From Planctomycetaceae bacterium (lineage in GTDB: Bacteria > Planctomycetota > Phycisphaerae > Phycisphaerales > SM1A02), in NCBI GenBank assembly GCA_947480055.1, contig CANKBX010000005.1, positions 1 through 43,890 of the forward strand: a stretch of DNA of 43,890 nt, written 5' to 3'. Positions within the stretch are counted from its first letter, which is position 1; every line of letters starts with the position of its first letter. This document shows positions 6,362-16,334 of the stretch, in pieces. Under the pieces are notes generated by a model, which did no database searches, had not been told where the DNA came from, and worked only from the letters and a program-made list of their open reading frames with translations. Made by a program: the position numbers and the translations under genes.

Positions 6362-6547
6362 ATGACAAACTGGATTAAAAACTTCATTAATGACGAGCGC
6401 GGCGCTGAGAGCACCGAGTTGGCTGTTTCTGTTCTAGTGGTCGCCGGTGGTGCGATTGCTTCAGCTAAGACTCTTCGAAACAAGATCCAAGAGAAGAATT
6501 CCGATATGATCGAAGAGTTCGATACAACTGGCACAACTGGCCCTTAA
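6362..6547 (+). CDS. flp: Flp-type pilin, copy 1
   Basis: 61 aa MTNWIKNFINDERGAESTELAVSVLVVAGGAIASAKTL...; short basic leader, G^AESTE prepilin cleavage-like site with Glu at +5, hydrophobic segment; beside tad genes. Confidence 0.85.
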   Translation: MTNWIKNFINDERGAESTELAVSVLVVAGGAIASAKTLRNKIQEKNSDMIEEFDTTGTTGP

Positions 6548-6788: not shown

Positions 6789-6974
6789 ATGACAAACTGG
6801 ATTAAAAACTTCATTAATGACGAGCGCGGCGCTGAGAGCACCGAGTTGGCTGTTTCTGTTCTAGTGGTCGCCGGTGGTGCGATTGCTTCAGCTAAGACTC
6901 TTCGAAACAAGATCCAAGAGAAGAATGCCGATATGATCGAAGAGTTCGATACAACTGGCACAACTGGCCCTTAA
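6789..6974 (+). CDS. flp: Flp-type pilin, copy 2 (one residue different, S to A)
   Basis: Near-identical duplicate of 6362..6547. Confidence 0.85.
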   Translation: MTNWIKNFINDERGAESTELAVSVLVVAGGAIASAKTLRNKIQEKNADMIEEFDTTGTTGP

Positions 6975-7098: not shown

Positions 7099-8391
7099 TT
7101 AACGCACCAAACGCGCCCGCCCGGGCATCGCTTGAGTAGTGAGTTCATCAATAACGTCGGTGAATTCAAGAAGAGCCGAACCATGCTCCTCTACAGATCC
7201 AAGAATCGCTGTTCCCAAACGCGCTTGGGCATTCAGTTCCATCTGAAGCGCCGTATCGGGGGCGTAGCAATGCGACTCAAAAGAAACTATCGCTGAGCCA
7301 GCTATTCTCCAAGGCGCTGTTGCGCCCCGTTGTATAAACCAGTACCCAGACCAATCGCCAATTCCGTCCGCGGGCGTTCCTTCCATCACACTGCTTTGGC
7401 CCACTCTCAACAATGCTGAATTTGCCAATTGAATTGTTGCGTGATCGAATTGCAAATTGCAAGTTCCACGAATAAATATCCCTTTCACAAATTGATGCAG
7501 GCCCGGGTCAAGAATGACGGTTCCACCACTAGCTTGCAGAAACCCATGCACGCCTGGAGCAACATGAGTCACGCCGATATTGTCATGATCGATGTCTGGT
7601 AGTTCCTCTGCAGGCACTACAAAAGCAGGCAAATCAATTGCATTCATGGGATCAGCAGGAATCACTTCAGACTCCTGCACAACGCCGTCCACAGCCAACT
7701 TGGTCTGTGGATCTATTGTTCCTGGCAGGCGCAACACAGTAAGTTGCATTGATGCATTAGGCAAAATCTGGCAAGCATTCGCGTTGATTGATCGCACCGA
7801 CACACCGCCCTTGGAAACCAGCCGGGCCTGATTATCTAAAGCAATCCCGCTAGATGTTTCCGCATTCAAAAGCAGTGAAGTGGTATTGCGCGGAGGGTTG
7901 TAAACGGCAATGCTCACGCGTTCAAATGCCATTGGCGATGTGCCAAAGAATCCGCCAAGCACCAAGCCAGGGGAACCATTGGGATGATCCGGCGCAAATC
8001 GCACACGCGCTCGAACAGCGGGCCCACCATCTGAGTCAACGGTAAAAACTCGAAGTTCATCGTCCCAGTGGCCAAATTCAACATCGCCTCCTCCACCTGG
8101 ACCGTTTCCAATAGTGACCACGATCGGACCATTTGGTCCCATATTGCCCGCAGCTGCTGCTTGGGCATCATCTCGGACATCATCGCCACTGTCCCTGTAT
8201 CGGGCCGCGGCGGCCAAAGCAACGGCATCCGCGGCAAACTTGGCGCTGGTTACTGAACGAACCGCCAATCCAATTTCCACGCCAAACCACGCCATCATTA
8301 AGACCACCGGTAGAAAAATGATCACGGTGGCCGTGGATGCGCCCCTTCTATTGGACCAAATAAGTTCAGTTGAATTACGCATAAATTTCAA
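7099..8391 (-). CDS. TadG-like pilus-associated protein (Tad-like N-terminal region)
   Basis: MKFMRNSTELIWSNRRGASTATVIIFLPVVLMMAWFGVEIGLAVRSVTSAKFAADAVALAAAARY; location in tad locus. Confidence 0.7.
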   Translation of the reverse strand: MKFMRNSTELIWSNRRGASTATVIIFLPVVLMMAWFGVEIGLAVRSVTSAKFAADAVALAAAARYRDSGDDVRDDAQAAAAGNMGPNGPIVVTIGNGPGGGGDVEFGHWDDELRVFTVDSDGGPAVRARVRFAPDHPNGSPGLVLGGFFGTSPMAFERVSIAVYNPPRNTTSLLLNAETSSGIALDNQARLVSKGGVSVRSINANACQILPNASMQLTVLRLPGTIDPQTKLAVDGVVQESEVIPADPMNAIDLPAFVVPAEELPDIDHDNIGVTHVAPGVHGFLQASGGTVILDPGLHQFVKGIFIRGTCNLQFDHATIQLANSALLRVGQSSVMEGTPADGIGDWSGYWFIQRGATAPWRIAGSAIVSFESHCYAPDTALQMELNAQARLGTAILGSVEEHGSALLEFTDVIDELTTQAMPGRARLVR

Positions 8392-8463: not shown

Positions 8464-9111
8464 ATGTCTTCGATATTTCTAAATTTATTATGCTTTGACG
8501 TGCCTTTTGTAGGAAATGTGGCGCAATCAGAGCATGGACCCTCATTATGGGTCTGGATCTTGCTCATCGCAGCCGGAATCGTGGCAACCATTACCGATCT
8601 ACGCACTATGCTTATTCGAAATTGGCTCACTTTGCCACTACTAGTGGCAGGCCTTACTTACAGCGGTATTGTTGCCGGAACGCCTGGAGTTGTAGATTCG
8701 TTAGAGGGAGCCGGGGTGGCGGGAGGTGTATTTCTAGCTGCATATGCTTTCGCCCGCGGTGGCGCTGGCGATGCCAAATTAATGATGGCATTTGGATCAT
8801 GGGTTGGGTTTCAATGTTCGGCGGTGCTTTTATTAAGCGTGGCGATAGTAGGTTTTTTTGCAGCAATGGGGCTTATTGTTAAACGCTGCGGCATCACCCA
8901 AATTCCAAACGCTATTTTTCATCAAATTATGATGACCAGAATGGGCTTTTTACGATTTCTAAAGGGCCACAAGTTAAATCAAGATGAGAATGCCATCTAC
9001 CAAGCAGAACCTCAGCAGCGCCCTAAGTTATGGTTTCCATATGCTCCGTCCATCTTGCTTGGAACTATTGCCGCATGGTGGTATTGGGAACAATTTGGAG
9101 GAGTTCTATGA
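8464..9111 (+). CDS. tadV: Prepilin peptidase, A24 family (TadV/CpaA)
   Basis: DLRTMLIRNWLTLPLLVAGL...; GGAGDAKLMMAFG (GxGD motif), multiple TM segments. Confidence 0.88.
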   Translation: MSSIFLNLLCFDVPFVGNVAQSEHGPSLWVWILLIAAGIVATITDLRTMLIRNWLTLPLLVAGLTYSGIVAGTPGVVDSLEGAGVAGGVFLAAYAFARGGAGDAKLMMAFGSWVGFQCSAVLLLSVAIVGFFAAMGLIVKRCGITQIPNAIFHQIMMTRMGFLRFLKGHKLNQDENAIYQAEPQQRPKLWFPYAPSILLGTIAAWWYWEQFGGVL

Positions 9112-9524
9112 AATTGCACCGATTCAATCACTCTCGCCGCGGCTCTGAAAGTGCTGAGATGATTATAGCCCTTCCAGTGGTGATTTTATTGATTTTTGCG
9201 GGGTTTGAATATGGCTGGGTCGCCCTTAAATCAATCCAAATGGATCATGCCGCGCGCGTTGGTGCTCGAGTTGCGGCACTGTCTGGTTCCACATCTGCGG
9301 ACGTAGAAAATAAGGTAAATACAGCCCTTTTAAATTCTGGAATTGTGGGGGCAACACTTACCATTAATCCGCAAGATCCATCTACGGCACCACTTGGCAC
9401 CCCAATCACGGTTCTAATTGAGACCAATTATTCAAATGTGCAATTGCTTGGACTTAGCCGCATGATGCCACTGCCAGCCGTTCTGAAAGGGCGAGCCAGC
9501 ATGGTGAAGGAACCCGAGCCGTAA
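9108..9524 (+). CDS. tadE: TadE-like minor pseudopilin
   Basis: MKLHRFNHSRRGSESAEMIIALPVVILLIFAGFEYGW...; G^SESAE site; ATGA overlap with tadV. Confidence 0.85.
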   Translation: MKLHRFNHSRRGSESAEMIIALPVVILLIFAGFEYGWVALKSIQMDHAARVGARVAALSGSTSADVENKVNTALLNSGIVGATLTINPQDPSTAPLGTPITVLIETNYSNVQLLGLSRMMPLPAVLKGRASMVKEPEP

Positions 9525-9671: not shown

Positions 9672-12005
9672 ATGTCCACAACTCGTTTGATCATGATCGG
9701 CCTTGTCATGGCGGTGGTTGCCGCCCTGCTGGCTGTATTTGTGCAATTTGTCTTTGTCGCTGGCGGCAGTTCTGAAGGGCAGAGCTCTGCTCAAATGGTT
9801 GTTACTGCCCAGGAATTCCCCGCGGGGCACAAGCTTATTGCAAACGATCTTGTTGCCGCGCCAGCCAAAGCAATGGCCAATGGGAAAAAAGGGATTGCGT
9901 CAATGCAATCGGTTGTGGGTCGCACTTTGGTGATGCCCATGAAAAAAGGGCAGGCGATCACGGCCGAGGATCTTGTTGTGCAAGGATCTGGATCCTTGAT
10001 CGCCAGCCAAATTCCACCTGGATACCGCGCAATAGTTGTGTCGCTACGCGATCCCGCTCCAGGCGTTGTGCTTTACCCAGGTGCGCTTGTGGACATTCTT
10101 GCCACTATGGAAGCGCCGGGAACAGGAAATGCGCAGCGAGAAAAAATCACGCGAACAGTGCAGGAACGCATGCGTGTTCTTGCGGTGAATGACGAAACCG
10201 TTGGAGGCAAACCAAACGAAATAACTGATCGCCGCAATACAAACCAACGCAAACTTTCTGTAACACTGGCCGTGACTCCCGAGCAAGCTGCGCAAATCGA
10301 ACTCGCAAGCGCACGCGGCACAATTGGAATTACTTTGCGATCCGATGACGACGCCAATCCAGACTTGGGTCAATTTGCCACGGCTACAACAAAGTCGCTC
10401 ATGGGTATTGTGTCAGATGAAGCTGCGCCAGTCGCAGAAGACCCTGTGGCAAAGGGCACCAAAAAATCCAATGAAACCGCGCCAACGTATGCGCCCTCTG
10501 TTTCCAAGCAAACAAAAATGTTGGAATCCAAGATTTGCCGCATCTTTAACGTGAATCTTCAGGTTGAGGAAATTCAAGGAACCGTGGCGCTGCGTGGCAC
10601 TATGCCAGACATTGCAACGGCAAACTTAATCCAAGCCTTTATGACTGCCTCGGGATTAAAGTGGGTTGACCTCACCCACATCGCTGGCGTGCAACAAGTG
10701 CAATTGCGTGTGCGCATTGCCGAGGCAAGCCGATATGCATTGCGCGAGTTGGCATTTGGCGCGGTGGCCGGCGGCAATTCGTTTTTCGGTGGCTACCAAG
10801 CTCCGGGCGGAACCCCATTCCAACCAGTCTCAATTTCGCCGGGCGCTGGCGCGCAACAAACAGCCACCGTCGGTGGCAACGTCGCCACTGAAGCAAGCGG
10901 TGTCACCAGTCCAAACTTTGGATTCGATAAGAACGCAGTTACAAGCGCTGTGACTTTATTTGGAGGCGTTCCAGGCTCTGATTTGGAATTTTATATTCAA
11001 GCTCTTTCTGAGAATCGATATGTTCGTTTGCTTGCAGAACCCAACTTGGTTGCCATCAGCGGAGAACGCGCCACGTTTTTAGTTGGAGGCGCGTTTCCAA
11101 TTCCGGTTGTGCAAAACTCTGGCGCAAGTAGTTCGGTGACTATTGAGTACAAAGAGTTTGGTGTGCGATTGAACTTCCGCCCCGAAGTGCTTGGTCAAGG
11201 ACGCATTCGTTTAGAAGTGGCGCCTGAAGTCAGTGAGTTAAGCGAGATTGGTTCGCTGCGACAAAACGGATTCACCGTTCCAAGCGTGATTACGCGAAGA
11301 TCTAGCACCACCGTGGAACTGGGAAGCGGTCAATCTTTCGCCATGGCTGGCTTGCTTCGCACCAAGGAACAGGGACGCGTTTCAAAGGTTCCAATTCTTG
11401 GAGATATTCCCGTGCTTGGCGTGCTATTTCGAAGCGTTCGATATGAAGAGGATCAGACCGAATTGGTGGTGATGGTCACGGCTGAATTGGTTGAACCACT
11501 TGACAATGGAACCGTACGTCCGCTGCCTGGCGATCTGCATGAAGCTCCGAATGATTGGGAATTGTTTATGGAAGGTTCTCTCGCTGGGGCAACCAAAGCT
11601 GGCAAGCCGCTAGAGCGATTGAAAGCTCTTGGCTTGGCGGGTCTGCGTGGTCCAGGCGCTTTGCGCAGACCTGACGACGCGCGAGTTTCAGCCGCCGATG
11701 TATTTCCGGCAACAACAAGCGTTGAGGTTGAACAAAAAGTGCAACCTGAACCGTCAACAACCACTCCGGTTGTCAATGTAATTCCCGCCACGCTTGAGCC
11801 CGAACCATCTGCAACTACGCCAGTTGTCAATGAAATCCCCGCCACGTTTGAGCCGCAGCCATCCACAACCACGCCGATTTTGAATGAAATTCCCGCCACG
11901 CTGGAACCCCAGCCATCCATAACCACGCCAACTGAAAATCAAATTCCCGCCACGCTGGAAACTTTGCCTCAAGCCACGGTTCCCAACGAGACCAAGACCC
12001 CGTGA
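9672..12005 (+). CDS. Fused Flp pilus assembly protein: N-terminal CpaB/RcpC (SAF-type) + C-terminal CpaC/RcpA-type secretin
   Basis: TM, EFPAGHKLIANDLVAAPAKA... and GYRAIVVSLRDPAPGVVLYPGALVDILATM (CpaB); then ICRIFNVNLQVEEIQGTVALRGTMPD...VQQVQLRVRIAEASRYALREL...NRYVRLLAEPNLVAISGERATFLVGGAFPIPV...VPILGDIPVLGVLFRS (secretin). Confidence 0.88.
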   Translation: MSTTRLIMIGLVMAVVAALLAVFVQFVFVAGGSSEGQSSAQMVVTAQEFPAGHKLIANDLVAAPAKAMANGKKGIASMQSVVGRTLVMPMKKGQAITAEDLVVQGSGSLIASQIPPGYRAIVVSLRDPAPGVVLYPGALVDILATMEAPGTGNAQREKITRTVQERMRVLAVNDETVGGKPNEITDRRNTNQRKLSVTLAVTPEQAAQIELASARGTIGITLRSDDDANPDLGQFATATTKSLMGIVSDEAAPVAEDPVAKGTKKSNETAPTYAPSVSKQTKMLESKICRIFNVNLQVEEIQGTVALRGTMPDIATANLIQAFMTASGLKWVDLTHIAGVQQVQLRVRIAEASRYALRELAFGAVAGGNSFFGGYQAPGGTPFQPVSISPGAGAQQTATVGGNVATEASGVTSPNFGFDKNAVTSAVTLFGGVPGSDLEFYIQALSENRYVRLLAEPNLVAISGERATFLVGGAFPIPVVQNSGASSSVTIEYKEFGVRLNFRPEVLGQGRIRLEVAPEVSELSEIGSLRQNGFTVPSVITRRSSTTVELGSGQSFAMAGLLRTKEQGRVSKVPILGDIPVLGVLFRSVRYEEDQTELVVMVTAELVEPLDNGTVRPLPGDLHEAPNDWELFMEGSLAGATKAGKPLERLKALGLAGLRGPGALRRPDDARVSAADVFPATTSVEVEQKVQPEPSTTTPVVNVIPATLEPEPSATTPVVNEIPATFEPQPSTTTPILNEIPATLEPQPSITTPTENQIPATLETLPQATVPNETKTP
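11751..11963 (+). repeat. Four 54-bp (18-aa) tandem repeats in the secretin-fusion C-terminus
   Basis: PSTTTPVVNVIPATLEPE / PSATTPVVNEIPATFEPQ / PSTTTPILNEIPATLEPQ / PSITTPTENQIPATLET. Confidence 0.92.
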
Positions 12006-13312
12006 GTGACGCGAAGATCGTCAGCCCAATGAACGCCGCGGCGCTTGCCACACTGCGACGCGAACTGCACACGCGCCTTTTAAGCACATTTGATTTTGCC
12101 GCCGCGGACCAAATGAACCGCGATCAACTTGTCGCCGAGTGCAGCAAGCGCGTGGGAAAAATGCTGGAGCAAGGAACGCCTATTTCCAACCAAGAACAAG
12201 CGTGGCTTGTGCAAGGCGTGTTGGATGACATGTTTGGACTTGGGCCACTTGAGCCACTGCTCAGCAACGAATCGATCACCGACATTCTTGTTGTGAGTCC
12301 AGATCGAGTCTTCGTTGAGCGTCAAGGTCGTTTAGAAAAATGCGATGCGCAATTTCGCGACGAGGCACATTTGATGCATGTGATTCAGCGCTTAGTTCGC
12401 AACACGGGCCGACGCATTGACGAACTCAGTCCAATGGTGGACACGCGTCTATCCGATGGTTCACGCATCAATGCGATTATTCCCCCGCTTGCCGTGGATG
12501 GCGCCCAACTGAGCATCCGACGCTTTCCGAAGATCGCGCTTGGATTACATGGACTTGTCAAAATAGGAACGCTCACCAATGCCACCGCGGATCTGCTTCG
12601 AGCCATGGTGGCGGGTCGACTGAATGTGATCTTCTCGGGTGGTACGGGCGTTGGAAAAACAACAATGCTCAATGCCGCCTCGGTGGCCATTCCCACCACT
12701 GAACGCGTGATCACCATTGAAGATGCAGCGGAACTACGACTCGAGGGCGGCCACATTGTTCGTTTAGAGTCGCGAGCTGCAAATGTGGAGGGCGTTGGCG
12801 CCATCGAAACGAGAGAACTTCTTCGCAACGCGCTTCGCATGCGGCCCGACCGAATCATTGTGGGTGAATGTCGCGGCGCAGAAACGTTTGACATGATGCA
12901 GGCAATGAACACGGGCCATGAAGGCTCCATGACCACTTTGCACGCCAACAGCGCCAAAGACACGCTCACCAGACTTGAGTCCATGCTTTCCATGGGTGGC
13001 TTTGAAATGCCCATTCGAGTGCTTCGTGAATACATCGCATCAGCGATCGACGTTGTGGTGCATTTGGCGCGCCTACCTGATGGCCGGCGTGTGGTGAACG
13101 AAATTGTGGAGTTGTGCGGCAGCGACGAAAATGGAATTAAAATCGCGGTGCTGCAGAAATTTCAACTTGAAGGCGTGCGTGATGGCAAAGCCATTGGCAA
13201 ATTTGTGGCCACCGGAATTCAGCCACAGTTTCTAGAGCGCCTACAATCTCGCGGAATTATGCTTAGTCCTGCAGTATTTGCAGCCGGAGCGCTCCAAGCG
13301 GAGAACCAATAG
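12002..13312 (+). CDS. cpaF: Tad/CpaF secretion ATPase
   Basis: GTG start in GTGA overlap with upstream stop; FSGGTGVGKTTMLNAA (Walker A), TIEDAAELRL, RPDRIIVGECRGAETFDMMQAMNTGHEGSMTTLHANS. Confidence 0.95.
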   Translation: MSDAKIVSPMNAAALATLRRELHTRLLSTFDFAAADQMNRDQLVAECSKRVGKMLEQGTPISNQEQAWLVQGVLDDMFGLGPLEPLLSNESITDILVVSPDRVFVERQGRLEKCDAQFRDEAHLMHVIQRLVRNTGRRIDELSPMVDTRLSDGSRINAIIPPLAVDGAQLSIRRFPKIALGLHGLVKIGTLTNATADLLRAMVAGRLNVIFSGGTGVGKTTMLNAASVAIPTTERVITIEDAAELRLEGGHIVRLESRAANVEGVGAIETRELLRNALRMRPDRIIVGECRGAETFDMMQAMNTGHEGSMTTLHANSAKDTLTRLESMLSMGGFEMPIRVLREYIASAIDVVVHLARLPDGRRVVNEIVELCGSDENGIKIAVLQKFQLEGVRDGKAIGKFVATGIQPQFLERLQSRGIMLSPAVFAAGALQAENQ

Positions 13313-13314
13313 CA

Positions 13315-14169
13315 ATGACCTTGCAGACCCTGCTGCTGCCCATACTTTCGGCGGCCATTGCAATGACGGCGTGGATATTTTTTATGCGGCGAATGAGCAA
13401 CCGCGCCAACGCTCCCACTACCGCCACGGCAGAAACCCCGGAAAAAATCAAAGACAAGAACACGCGCTCGCCATTTCCTTTGGTCATTGGACTAGTGTTG
13501 GGGGGATTTATCTGGGTCATTGCCGAACGTCCAACATTGGCTATTGCCGCTTTCGTGCTGTGCTATGGCGTGAGCGAGATGCTGCGCATTCGCAAACAAA
13601 AAATACAACTGGTGCTCGAAGAGCAATACGCAATTGAAGCGGTTGGTGGCGCAAGCCGCTCATTGAGAGCCGGAATCCCTTTATCGGGAATGCTGCAGAT
13701 TCTTTCCGTGGAAACTCGTGGCCAAACGCAAATGGCGTTTCGACAAATCATTCAGCGCGAAGCCATGGGCGAAGAGTTGGCGATCGCAATTCGGCGTGTG
13801 TTGCTGCAATCGCCACTGTCCACGCTGCGTGCGTTTGGCTTGGCGTTGATCATTCAAATATCCGCCGGTGGAAATTTGGCCGACACCACCGATCGGCTTG
13901 CCCGCTCGCTAGTTGATCGCACAAGAGTGCTGCGCCGTTCCAAGGCGATTGTTGCCTACGCACGCGCGGCAGCCATTGTGCTTGCGGTGCTTCCGCCGAT
14001 CGTGGTTGCCTTGATGTGCGTGATGGTGGAAGGCTATAGCGAATTCTTGTTTGATCGAACCGAAGGCAACACTATTTTGGGCGTCGCGGTGGTTCTCGTT
14101 GTGATTGGGCTCACCTCTATACAGCGATTCGGCCGTATTGAATTGCAGAAAAAATGGAAGCCAACATGA
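13315..14169 (+). CDS. tadB: TadB-like type II secretion F-domain membrane protein
   Basis: AVGGASRSLRAGIPLSGMLQIL...LALIIQISAGGNLADTTDRLARSLVDR; TM segments; position after cpaF. Confidence 0.88.
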   Translation: MTLQTLLLPILSAAIAMTAWIFFMRRMSNRANAPTTATAETPEKIKDKNTRSPFPLVIGLVLGGFIWVIAERPTLAIAAFVLCYGVSEMLRIRKQKIQLVLEEQYAIEAVGGASRSLRAGIPLSGMLQILSVETRGQTQMAFRQIIQREAMGEELAIAIRRVLLQSPLSTLRAFGLALIIQISAGGNLADTTDRLARSLVDRTRVLRRSKAIVAYARAAAIVLAVLPPIVVALMCVMVEGYSEFLFDRTEGNTILGVAVVLVVIGLTSIQRFGRIELQKKWKPT

Positions 14170-15035
14170 TCATGCTGCCGCTGATCGCAGGCTTCGCAAC
14201 CCTGGTTGCCGTGGTGGTGCTTGGCTTGAAAAGTCGATCCGCCGCGCAATTCAGTTCCAACATCACTGCTGACGCAGGAACCGAAAGTTGGATGCTTGAT
14301 GAAAAACCGATTGGTCTAACTTCATTGCTGCCAATTTCTTTGCGCACCAGACTCATTACCGCCGGCCTTGCGTCACCAACTCAGCAAATGAAATTTGTTG
14401 CCATTCACGTGCTGCTCACCATATCGGGGGCGTTGATATTGGGCTGGATGGCGTTTGACCAAGAGCCTTCACTCACGCCCACGGTTCTTGTTGGTTGCAT
14501 TGGTGGCGCCATTGGTTGGTGGCTGCCAAACTCATGGCTTGAAGTGCGCCTAGCACAGAGGCGCATAGATATTGTTTCGGAATTTCCTATCATGCTTGAT
14601 TTGCTGCAAATTTCTGTCCAAGGCGGCCTGGGACTTTCTGCCGCGTGGCTTGGCGTGGCGAAAACCTTGCGAGGCAGTGGCGACGCACTGGCCCAAGAAA
14701 TGAGGTTGGTTGAGTTAGAAGTGGGCTTTGGCGCTGGATGGAGAACAACCCTAGAAGCCACCACCGAACGAACTGGCGTGACTGAATTCCGATCCTTGGG
14801 CGCGCTGCTTGAGCAAACCGATCGATTTGGCACTGGACTTTCGCACATGATCCAGGTGCTTTCAGATTCCCTGCGCCATGAAGAACTTCAAGTTCTAGAG
14901 GAGCGCGCCCATCAAGCGTCGGTGAAAATGCTCTTTCCGCTTGCGGCCATGATGATGCCAGCCACACTTTTGCTGATTGTTGGACCGCTATTGTTGATGC
15001 TCTTTGAAGCACTTCAAGGCGCAGATGTGCGCTGA
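14154..15035 (+). CDS. tadC: TadC-like type II secretion F-domain membrane protein
   Basis: EFPIMLDLLQISVQGGLGLSAAWLGVAKTL...RSLGALLEQTDRFGTGLSHMIQVLSDSLRHEE..AHQASVKMLFPLAAMMMPATLLLIVGPLLL. Confidence 0.9.
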   Translation: MEANMIMLPLIAGFATLVAVVVLGLKSRSAAQFSSNITADAGTESWMLDEKPIGLTSLLPISLRTRLITAGLASPTQQMKFVAIHVLLTISGALILGWMAFDQEPSLTPTVLVGCIGGAIGWWLPNSWLEVRLAQRRIDIVSEFPIMLDLLQISVQGGLGLSAAWLGVAKTLRGSGDALAQEMRLVELEVGFGAGWRTTLEATTERTGVTEFRSLGALLEQTDRFGTGLSHMIQVLSDSLRHEELQVLEERAHQASVKMLFPLAAMMMPATLLLIVGPLLLMLFEALQGADVR

Positions 15036-15732
15036 ATCACCCAAAAAAATGAAGAAATTCATCCGCAAGAGCACAAAGATGCCGATGAAAGAGACCATGA
15101 AAGCGTTCGTGATGCAAACCCAACTTCGCAACCAGATGCAGGCCCCAATCAATTTCAATTGTATACCTGGCGTTGCCCGCAATCTGCGCATGCCACTTGC
15201 ATTTACAACGCTCATTGCTGCCACTCTTTCGGTTGCTGCATGCAGCACTCCACCCAAGAAGCACACCGACAGTATTGTGATGAAAGACGAAGTGCAATAT
15301 GCCGTGGACAAAGAATTTGTGCGCGAGCCATTCAACGACCAAACTCGCTTGGGCGTGATTCGTCAGCGATCTCTGTACGAAGTTCACTTCAAACCAGATT
15401 CTGCGAAGTTGTCCAATCTTGGTCAACGCGATGTGGCAATTCTGGCCGAGGCATTGCGCAGCGAAGGCGGTCGCATTTCAGTGCCCAAAGGAATCGCCAG
15501 CGACACTTTGCATGCCGCAAGAATTGAGCAGGTTCGCCTGGCTTTGGTGGAGGCGGGTATTGACATGGCGCACGTGAAGATTGGCGATGAGGACGAGGGC
15601 GGCATTGGAAGCAGTACCCATGAAGCACTGCTTATCCAAGCGGACATACGCAAATCACCAATGAAAGAATCTGGTGGAAAGACTTTAAATAACACAGGTG
15701 ATGGCAAGCCTTCTGGTGGAGGCAACCCATGA
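15004..15732 (+). CDS. CpaD-like/OmpA-like pilus biogenesis lipoprotein (true start may be internal, e.g. 15049)
   Basis: Lipobox-like LSVAACST; YEVHFKPDSAKLSNLGQRDVAILAEALRSEGGRISVP...RIEQVRLALVEAGI resembles CpaD/OmpA-like domains; tad locus context. Confidence 0.55.
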   Translation: MKHFKAQMCAESPKKMKKFIRKSTKMPMKETMKAFVMQTQLRNQMQAPINFNCIPGVARNLRMPLAFTTLIAATLSVAACSTPPKKHTDSIVMKDEVQYAVDKEFVREPFNDQTRLGVIRQRSLYEVHFKPDSAKLSNLGQRDVAILAEALRSEGGRISVPKGIASDTLHAARIEQVRLALVEAGIDMAHVKIGDEDEGGIGSSTHEALLIQADIRKSPMKESGGKTLNNTGDGKPSGGGNP

Positions 15733-16334
15733 TCAAGTTTCGAATGTTGCTTGCACGCGGCGCAACGGCAATGGCGGCAGCAATGCTTTTGCTTGCTCCG
15801 ATGAGTTGTGAATCAACGCCGGAAGTTTCCACCCCAGATTGGTTTGAAGGCGGCGCCATGAAGCCTGCTTCCGCGGAAACTCTGCAACTTACGGCGCGAG
15901 TGCTGGCCGCCAAAGGCGAAACCGCCAAGGCTGGATATATCTTGGATCGAATGTTTCAGCAATTTCCAAACTATCTAGGCACCTACACCGAGGGCGCCGA
16001 AGTGTTGTTGATCGACGGCCGCAATGCGGAAGCGATCAAGTGGCTGAATCGCGGACTTGAGAAATTTCCGAACCAACCCATTCTTATGAACAACCGCGGC
16101 ATGTGTCACTTGCTCGCCGCTGATCTTCCAGCCGCCACATCGGATTTTACCGCGGCCTACACAACGGATCCTGCCGATGCGGAATATGTTGCAAACCTTG
16201 CTCTAGTAAAGGCGCTTGGTGGAGACGATGCGGGGGCAACAGAACTTTGGAACCGCGTGCTTCCCCCAAGTGAAGTCCAGCGGAATATTGACATTGCCAT
16301 AAAGGCAAGACCAAACTTCCTGGTAAAAAAATAA
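15729..16334 (+). CDS. TadD-like TPR lipoprotein
   Basis: Signal peptide with lipobox-like LAPMSCES; TPR-like helices (AEAIKWLNRGLEKFPNQPILMNNRGMCHLLAADLPAATSDFTAAYTTDP). Confidence 0.72.
   Translation: MIKFRMLLARGATAMAAAMLLLAPMSCESTPEVSTPDWFEGGAMKPASAETLQLTARVLAAKGETAKAGYILDRMFQQFPNYLGTYTEGAEVLLIDGRNAEAIKWLNRGLEKFPNQPILMNNRGMCHLLAADLPAATSDFTAAYTTDPADAEYVANLALVKALGGDDAGATELWNRVLPPSEVQRNIDIAIKARPNFLVKK

Follow-up and report, generated by a model that had tools for sequence, protein, structure and literature searches.

Organization of the tad locus

The window, that is, the whole analysed stretch of 43,890 nucleotides, carries a tad locus in which the genes for Flp pilin, TadV, TadE, the TadA ATPase, the TadB/TadC platform and TadD are found together, and which is ordinary apart from the gene that it surrounds: a single frame joining the alignment-ring protein CpaB/RcpC to the Tad secretin CpaC/RcpA (cpaBC; positions 9672–12005, forward strand). 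Upstream of the tad operon lie two tandem, near-identical genes for small Flp-type pilins (6362–6547 and 6789–6974), the likeness of which includes flanking terminator-like sequence; the second copy, on the forward strand, was recognized from its sequence. A TadG-like protein is encoded on the reverse strand (7099–8391; weak Tad_C/Tad matches), followed on the forward strand by tadV for the prepilin peptidase (8464–9111; PF01478) and tadE for a minor pilin (9030–9524; PF07811). Beyond cpaBC, and likewise on the forward strand, come the gene for the TadA/CpaF ATPase (12002–13312; PF00437 and TIGR03819), which overlaps the fusion gene by four bases, tadB (13315–14169) and tadC (14154–15035), both of the T2SSF type, a gene for a weakly CpaD-like periplasmic protein (15004–15732; PF09476 with an E value of 0.003, below the cut-off) and, at the position of the pilotin TadD, a gene for a TPR protein (15729–16334) assigned from a profile match and the conserved gene order. 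No gene for TadZ/CpaE is present in the window between the secretin and tadA (at 12002). The order tadG-like, tadV, tadE, cpaB, cpaC, tadA, tadB, tadC, CpaD-like and tadD is common to split and fused loci as far as the contigs extend. Elsewhere in the window, at 1219–2523, a periplasmic solute-binding domain (SBP_bac_3; residues 104–426) is interrupted by the pore domain of an ion channel (Ion_trans_2; residues 219–303), which is the layout of a prokaryotic glutamate-receptor channel of the GluR0 type.

Domain structure of the fused protein

The fused gene is one open frame of 777 codons for amino acids, starting with ATG, ending with TGA and uninterrupted by stops. The CpaB profile TIGR03177 matches residues 9–257 (E value 3.2e-38; 131.5 bits against a curated cut-off of 71), the RcpC profile PF16976 residues 110–223 (4.8e-18) and the Secretin profile PF00263 residues 444–607 (5e-43), which bears out the proposal of a preceding sequence-only reading that CpaB/RcpC is fused to a CpaC/RcpA secretin in a single 777-residue frame. 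In a sequence search of the PDB the top match of the fusion was the Tad secretin RcpA (8odn; phmmer E value 1.4e-44), and the N-terminal half searched alone retrieved RcpC (9gzr; E value 0.002). Judged by these conserved domains, the protein belongs to both the CpaB/RcpC and the CpaC/RcpA families.

The chain opens with a predicted transmembrane anchor (residues 3–30; 9678–9761, forward strand), modelled by AlphaFold2 as one continuous helix and also apparent from hydropathy, in keeping with the N-terminal inner-membrane anchor that had been read from the sequence. This CpaB anchor is the sole export signal in the fusion protein. The maximum hydropathy over 19 residues reaches 2.7–3.1 at the N-terminus and at most 1.44 at residues 60–430 in ten fusions, G563 being left out and G565 kept apart; the latter reads 2.20 at residues 60–430 only as a result of an upstream start of its open frame, which brings the anchor into this range. 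A signal peptide of CpaC's own was thus not found, no strongly hydrophobic segment lying at residues 60–430 of the fusions measured.

The remaining domains of the window's protein, all on the forward strand, follow in the order expected from the two families. D1 (residues ~41–103; 9792–9980) is SAF/AFP-like: PF08666 and PF13144 match it weakly here and more strongly in the fused orthologue L029, and its Foldseek matches are type III antifreeze proteins with a TM score of 0.8. D2, the RcpC domain (residues ~110–223; 9999–10340), is identified by PF16976 and by a Foldseek match to RcpC (9gzr; E value 2e-12). It is joined to the N1 domain by a linker of 60 residues that contains the fusion joint (10341–10520), for which AlphaFold2 predicts a short helix at residues 240–243 and disorder at residues 250–275. 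From its position, a T-K-S-L-x-G stretch near residue 240, together with the short predicted helix, may correspond to the ring-forming (oligomerization) helix of RcpC L3. The secretin N1/BON-like domain (residues ~276–337; 10497–10682) is assigned from homology to split CpaC, which sets in at about residue 270 of the fusion, and from an AlphaFold2 fold of the helix–strand–strand–helix–strand type with weak structural matches to the BON proteins DolP and OsmY. The Pfam BON model found no match in this middle region; the BON-like region of the sequence-only reading is fairly described as BON-like or N1-like by its predicted fold, and not by that profile. The secretin core (residues 444–607; 11001–11492) is defined by its PF00263 match and by its likeness to RcpA (8odn), and the C-terminal tail (residues 611–777; 11502–12002), delimited from the translations, occupies the position of the S-domain. 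About four imperfect 19-residue Pro/Thr repeats (P-S-T-T-T-P-V-V-N-x-I-P-A-T-L-E-P-x-P) are found in the tail at ~11745–11962, a feature of only three of the seven fusions in the window's genus.

The AlphaFold2 model of the full chain is poor (pLDDT 57), and with it Foldseek retrieves both RcpC (9gzr; E value 1.5e-10) and RcpA (8odn; 2.6e-10). A model of residues 1–345 is better (pLDDT 77); it places D2 at ~118–223, and RcpC is its only strong structural match.

Distribution of fused and split genes

Six further genomes of the window's genus (g1) contain this continuous frame, at 75–94% identity, and a fused frame of ~700 residues with a different linker occurs in five genomes from g41, a second genus in the family. 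There is accordingly no frameshift at 10440–10540, where a missed one had been considered. The fused frame was found in 12 genomes in total, from two genera of one family (some freshwater Phycisphaerales), in every case free of stops. The search with TIGR03177 covered overlapping samples of 181 (family), 400 (order), 397 (class) and 392 (phylum) genomes; in the family sample 26 genomes scored above the cut-off, and 12 of those carry the fusion. Across the Planctomycetes, for which the sequence-only reading had envisaged a survey, the outcome is one family with fusions and, among the matches listed from the order, class and phylum samples, no further confirmed one. The long frames of G028 and G615 were rejected as candidates, CpaB lying there in a separate frame, as was that of G587, which matched neither the CpaB nor the secretin profiles used here. 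Within g1, seven of 16 genomes (G001, G006–G009, G012 and G014; 91–98% complete) have no CpaB above the cut-off, and the tad locus is patchy.

Split cpaB and cpaC genes, adjoining or overlapping, occur in g1 (G004 and G010), in g41 (G556 and G560) and in further genera, both of the family and of the order, which agrees with the earlier statement that CpaB and the secretin are normally encoded by separate neighbouring genes. In the split secretin of G556 (L102:5702-7456) the N1/BON-like domain is tandemly duplicated ahead of the secretin core.

Elements missing from the fusion

In Pseudomonas aeruginosa, RcpC forms an inner-membrane-anchored dodecameric ring that has been proposed to guide the pilus, and the predicted RcpC–RcpA contact consists of a β-hairpin at the C-terminus of RcpC that completes the sheet of the RcpA N-domain (PMC12307814). 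Without the hairpin Tad function is lost, both ring formation and binding of the RcpA N-domain depend on the L3 linker, and the hairpin–N-domain contact has been proposed to recruit the secretin and to open a lid for pilus growth (PMC12307814). RcpA occurs mainly as a 13-mer with a flexible, VirB9-like N-domain (PMC10499894), and a ring-to-pore mismatch of 12:13 has been inferred (PMC12307814). In Caulobacter, a bridging role between the CpaB hairpin and the secretin has been proposed for CpaI (PMC13170226).

The elements of this contact are recognizable in the split relatives. The split CpaB proteins terminate in a β-hairpin motif, W-E-V-x-V-x-x-G...F (for example WEVIVVKGDDTVRHPF in G004), which was detected in 11 of 15 proteins by script and in that of G025 by eye, three remaining unassigned, and in none of the 12 fusions. 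Split CpaC starts with a hydrophobic signal region followed by the N-domain PF13629, present in all five proteins scanned (E values of 5e-13 to 2e-18); a profile scan did not find this domain in the window's fusion (P0001) or in the fused orthologue L029. When 17 whole genomes were searched, PF13629 exceeded the cut-off in the five split genomes and in none of the 12 fused ones; the latter are 64–92% complete, for which reason its absence from a single genome is weaker than the overall pattern. Retention of the N-domain elsewhere in the fused genomes was rejected on this negative search, and retention of the hairpin on the finding of only one CpaB per fused genome. Split CpaC proteins of the family and order align to the fusion only from residue ~260–290 onwards, past their own N-domain.

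All 12 fusions therefore share the absence of the CpaB hairpin, the CpaC signal peptide and the CpaC N-domain, as well as of any intervening stop. The linker between D2 and N1 measures 54–64 residues in all of them (58 in each of the five from g41), which is near the 37–78 residues that separate the hairpin from D2 in split CpaB. By its composition, the fusion is not a simple read-through of two genes, and each half lacks a defining feature of its family as recognized by motif and profile: the hairpin in the CpaB half, the N-domain and signal peptide in the CpaC half. Since the hairpin and the RcpA N-domain are predicted to make up the docking contact in P. aeruginosa, the fusion lacks both docking partners, and what remains of the two proteins is joined by a peptide bond.

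Phylogeny of the fused genes

In the tree built from both halves, CpaB and secretin, with the linker excluded, the seven g1 fusions form one clade and the five g41 fusions another, each with full support, and the split genes of G560 are sister to the g41 fusions. A single clade of all fusions is rejected by the combined halves (p-AU 1.5e-4), by the secretin alone (5e-4) and by tadABC (8e-3). The joints also differ, a CpaC 'G-x-D' stub preceding the N1 helix in g41 and being absent in g1. The simplest reading of these data is that of two parallel fusions. A single event that spread to, or is common to, both genera, followed by recombination that restored the split state in G560, would account for the nearly identical anatomy of the two fusions, and one clade of all fusions is compatible with the CpaB half by itself (p-AU 0.49); this part is short, and G560 fills just 37% of its columns. 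Set against the three trees that do reject it, the sister position of G560 to the fused genes of its own genus and the differing joints, such a single origin seems unlikely, while still deserving some weight. Within g1, the fused loci do not have the split locus of G004 as their sister (p-AU 9e-9), which indicates mixed ancestry of the tad loci in this genus. The sequence-only reading, supported as regards the fusion itself, had missed both the deletion of the two docking elements and the existence of two separate clades.

Proposed product and its alternatives

We propose, with a probability of roughly 0.7, that the gene product serves a Tad (type IVc) pilus as a one-piece trans-envelope conduit, in which an anchored ring is covalently tethered to its own secretin. 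The CpaB half would provide the inner-membrane anchor and the D1 and D2 domains forming a pilus alignment ring above the inner membrane, from which a flexible linker of ~60 residues would reach the base of the secretin, leading into the N1-like domain and the CpaC barrel. In two-gene relatives, ring and pore would be joined non-covalently by the CpaB hairpin completing the sheet of the CpaC N-domain; in the fusion both contact partners and the CpaC signal peptide have been deleted, and a peptide bond stands in their place. The CpaB anchor would probably act as a signal-anchor exporting the entire chain, and the secretin part would be taken to the outer membrane with the help of the TadD-like TPR pilotin of the same operon. 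The result would be a single ring–pore assembly containing as many ring domains as pore domains.

The sequence-only reading had rightly posed the alternatives as a protein that spans the envelope or one that needs processing. Spanning is favoured, because the CpaB anchor is the only export signal, no internal signal peptide is present and VirB10 offers a precedent. We infer that the chain stays uncut, spans both membranes with a 1:1 stoichiometry and has a linker that substitutes for docking; the 1:1 ratio would hold only if the chain indeed stays uncut. With a ring of 12 and a pore of 13–14 subunits in P. aeruginosa, a 1:1 chain would need either a change in one of these numbers or some domains left unplaced. 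Moreover, the L3/D2 region also matters for binding of the RcpA N-domain in P. aeruginosa, so that the hairpin is not the whole interface.

Synonymous divergence between the two sub-groups of g1 amounts to 0.7–1.9, and for the pair G000 and G003 dN/dS is 0.19 in D1, 0.14 in D2, 0.16 in N1, 0.06 in the secretin and 0.43 in the linker. These ratios point to purifying selection on both halves, with the linker as the least constrained part. The latter, with its predicted disorder at residues 250–275, is what would be expected of a polyprotein that, once exported, is cleaved either within the linker or by signal peptidase behind the anchor, to give separate ring and pore in equal amounts; small residues following some anchors, as in G562 (...YAVA-SKF), offer possible signal peptidase sites. 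We consider such cutting, the main rival of the spanning protein, unlikely, as the length of the linker is steady at 54–64 residues despite its drift in sequence, no cleavage motif common to the linkers of the two clades was seen, and the products would have neither half of the joining contact, so that cutting should uncouple ring and pore. An internal start yielding a separate secretin was rejected as well: with no signal peptide past the joint, such a secretin would remain cytoplasmic.

Decay, with a deletion having inactivated the system and left the fused frame behind as a remnant, would fit with several other species of the genus having no CpaB above the cut-off, and is made very improbable by dN/dS values far below 1 in both halves at dS of up to 1.9 and by the operon order kept in the fused loci. 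A sequencing or assembly artefact, such as a missed frameshift or stop between two genes, has a negligible chance even with genomes that are mostly draft metagenome assemblies, given that the same in-frame joint recurs in separately assembled genomes and that a frameshift cannot produce a fusion from which ~145 CpaC codons and the CpaB hairpin are absent.

Returning to the covalently tethered conduit, the broader proposition is that two lineages independently swapped ring–secretin docking for a covalent link, so that the protein runs uncut from the inner membrane to the outer one, ring and pore share one symmetry and pilus extension has no docking-triggered start; this larger claim we regard as evenly poised. 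The loss of both partners in proteins whose remaining parts are fused suggests that the contact may be dispensable once ring and pore are held together. If so, its essential role would be attachment rather than gating, and the symmetry mismatch would not be required. As a compact natural construct, the fusion may also be of use for determining the structure of a Tad conduit, and it would offer a direct test of the docking model. To our knowledge, such an uncut protein would be the first secretin to carry an anchor in the inner membrane. In a limited search of the literature no earlier description of a CpaB–CpaC fusion was found, and Denise et al. mention none (PMC6668835).

Comparison with known systems

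Like RcpC of P. aeruginosa (9gzr; PMC12307814), the fusion has an N-terminal transmembrane helix, D1 and D2; unlike it, the chain is devoid of the C-terminal β-hairpin and runs on into a secretin. With RcpA (8odn; PMC10499894) it shares the secretin core and a setting in which tadA, tadB, tadC and a TPR pilotin-like gene follow downstream, but it has no signal peptide or PF13629 N-domain and would be held in the inner membrane through its CpaB half. A Tad-like secretin without the N-terminal (N0) domain is also known in KilC of Myxococcus, where, however, the CpaB protein KilB is separate and a fusion is unreported (PMC8460266). A likeness is also seen in OutB/GspB of the type II secretion system, where a pilotin inserts one end of the secretin and an inner-membrane anchor holds the other, periplasmic end; OutB shows that a secretin can be inserted while tethered to the inner membrane (PMC9239104). 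OutB/GspB and the secretin are separate proteins in contact through the N0 domain of the latter, whereas in the fusion the connection is covalent and the N-domain is missing. In its proposed topology, the fusion would resemble VirB10 of type IV secretion, one polypeptide inserted in both the inner and the outer membrane around a pilus or secretion conduit (PMC4182333). VirB10 is unrelated in sequence, and its outer-membrane part is helical and contains no secretin (PMC4182333).
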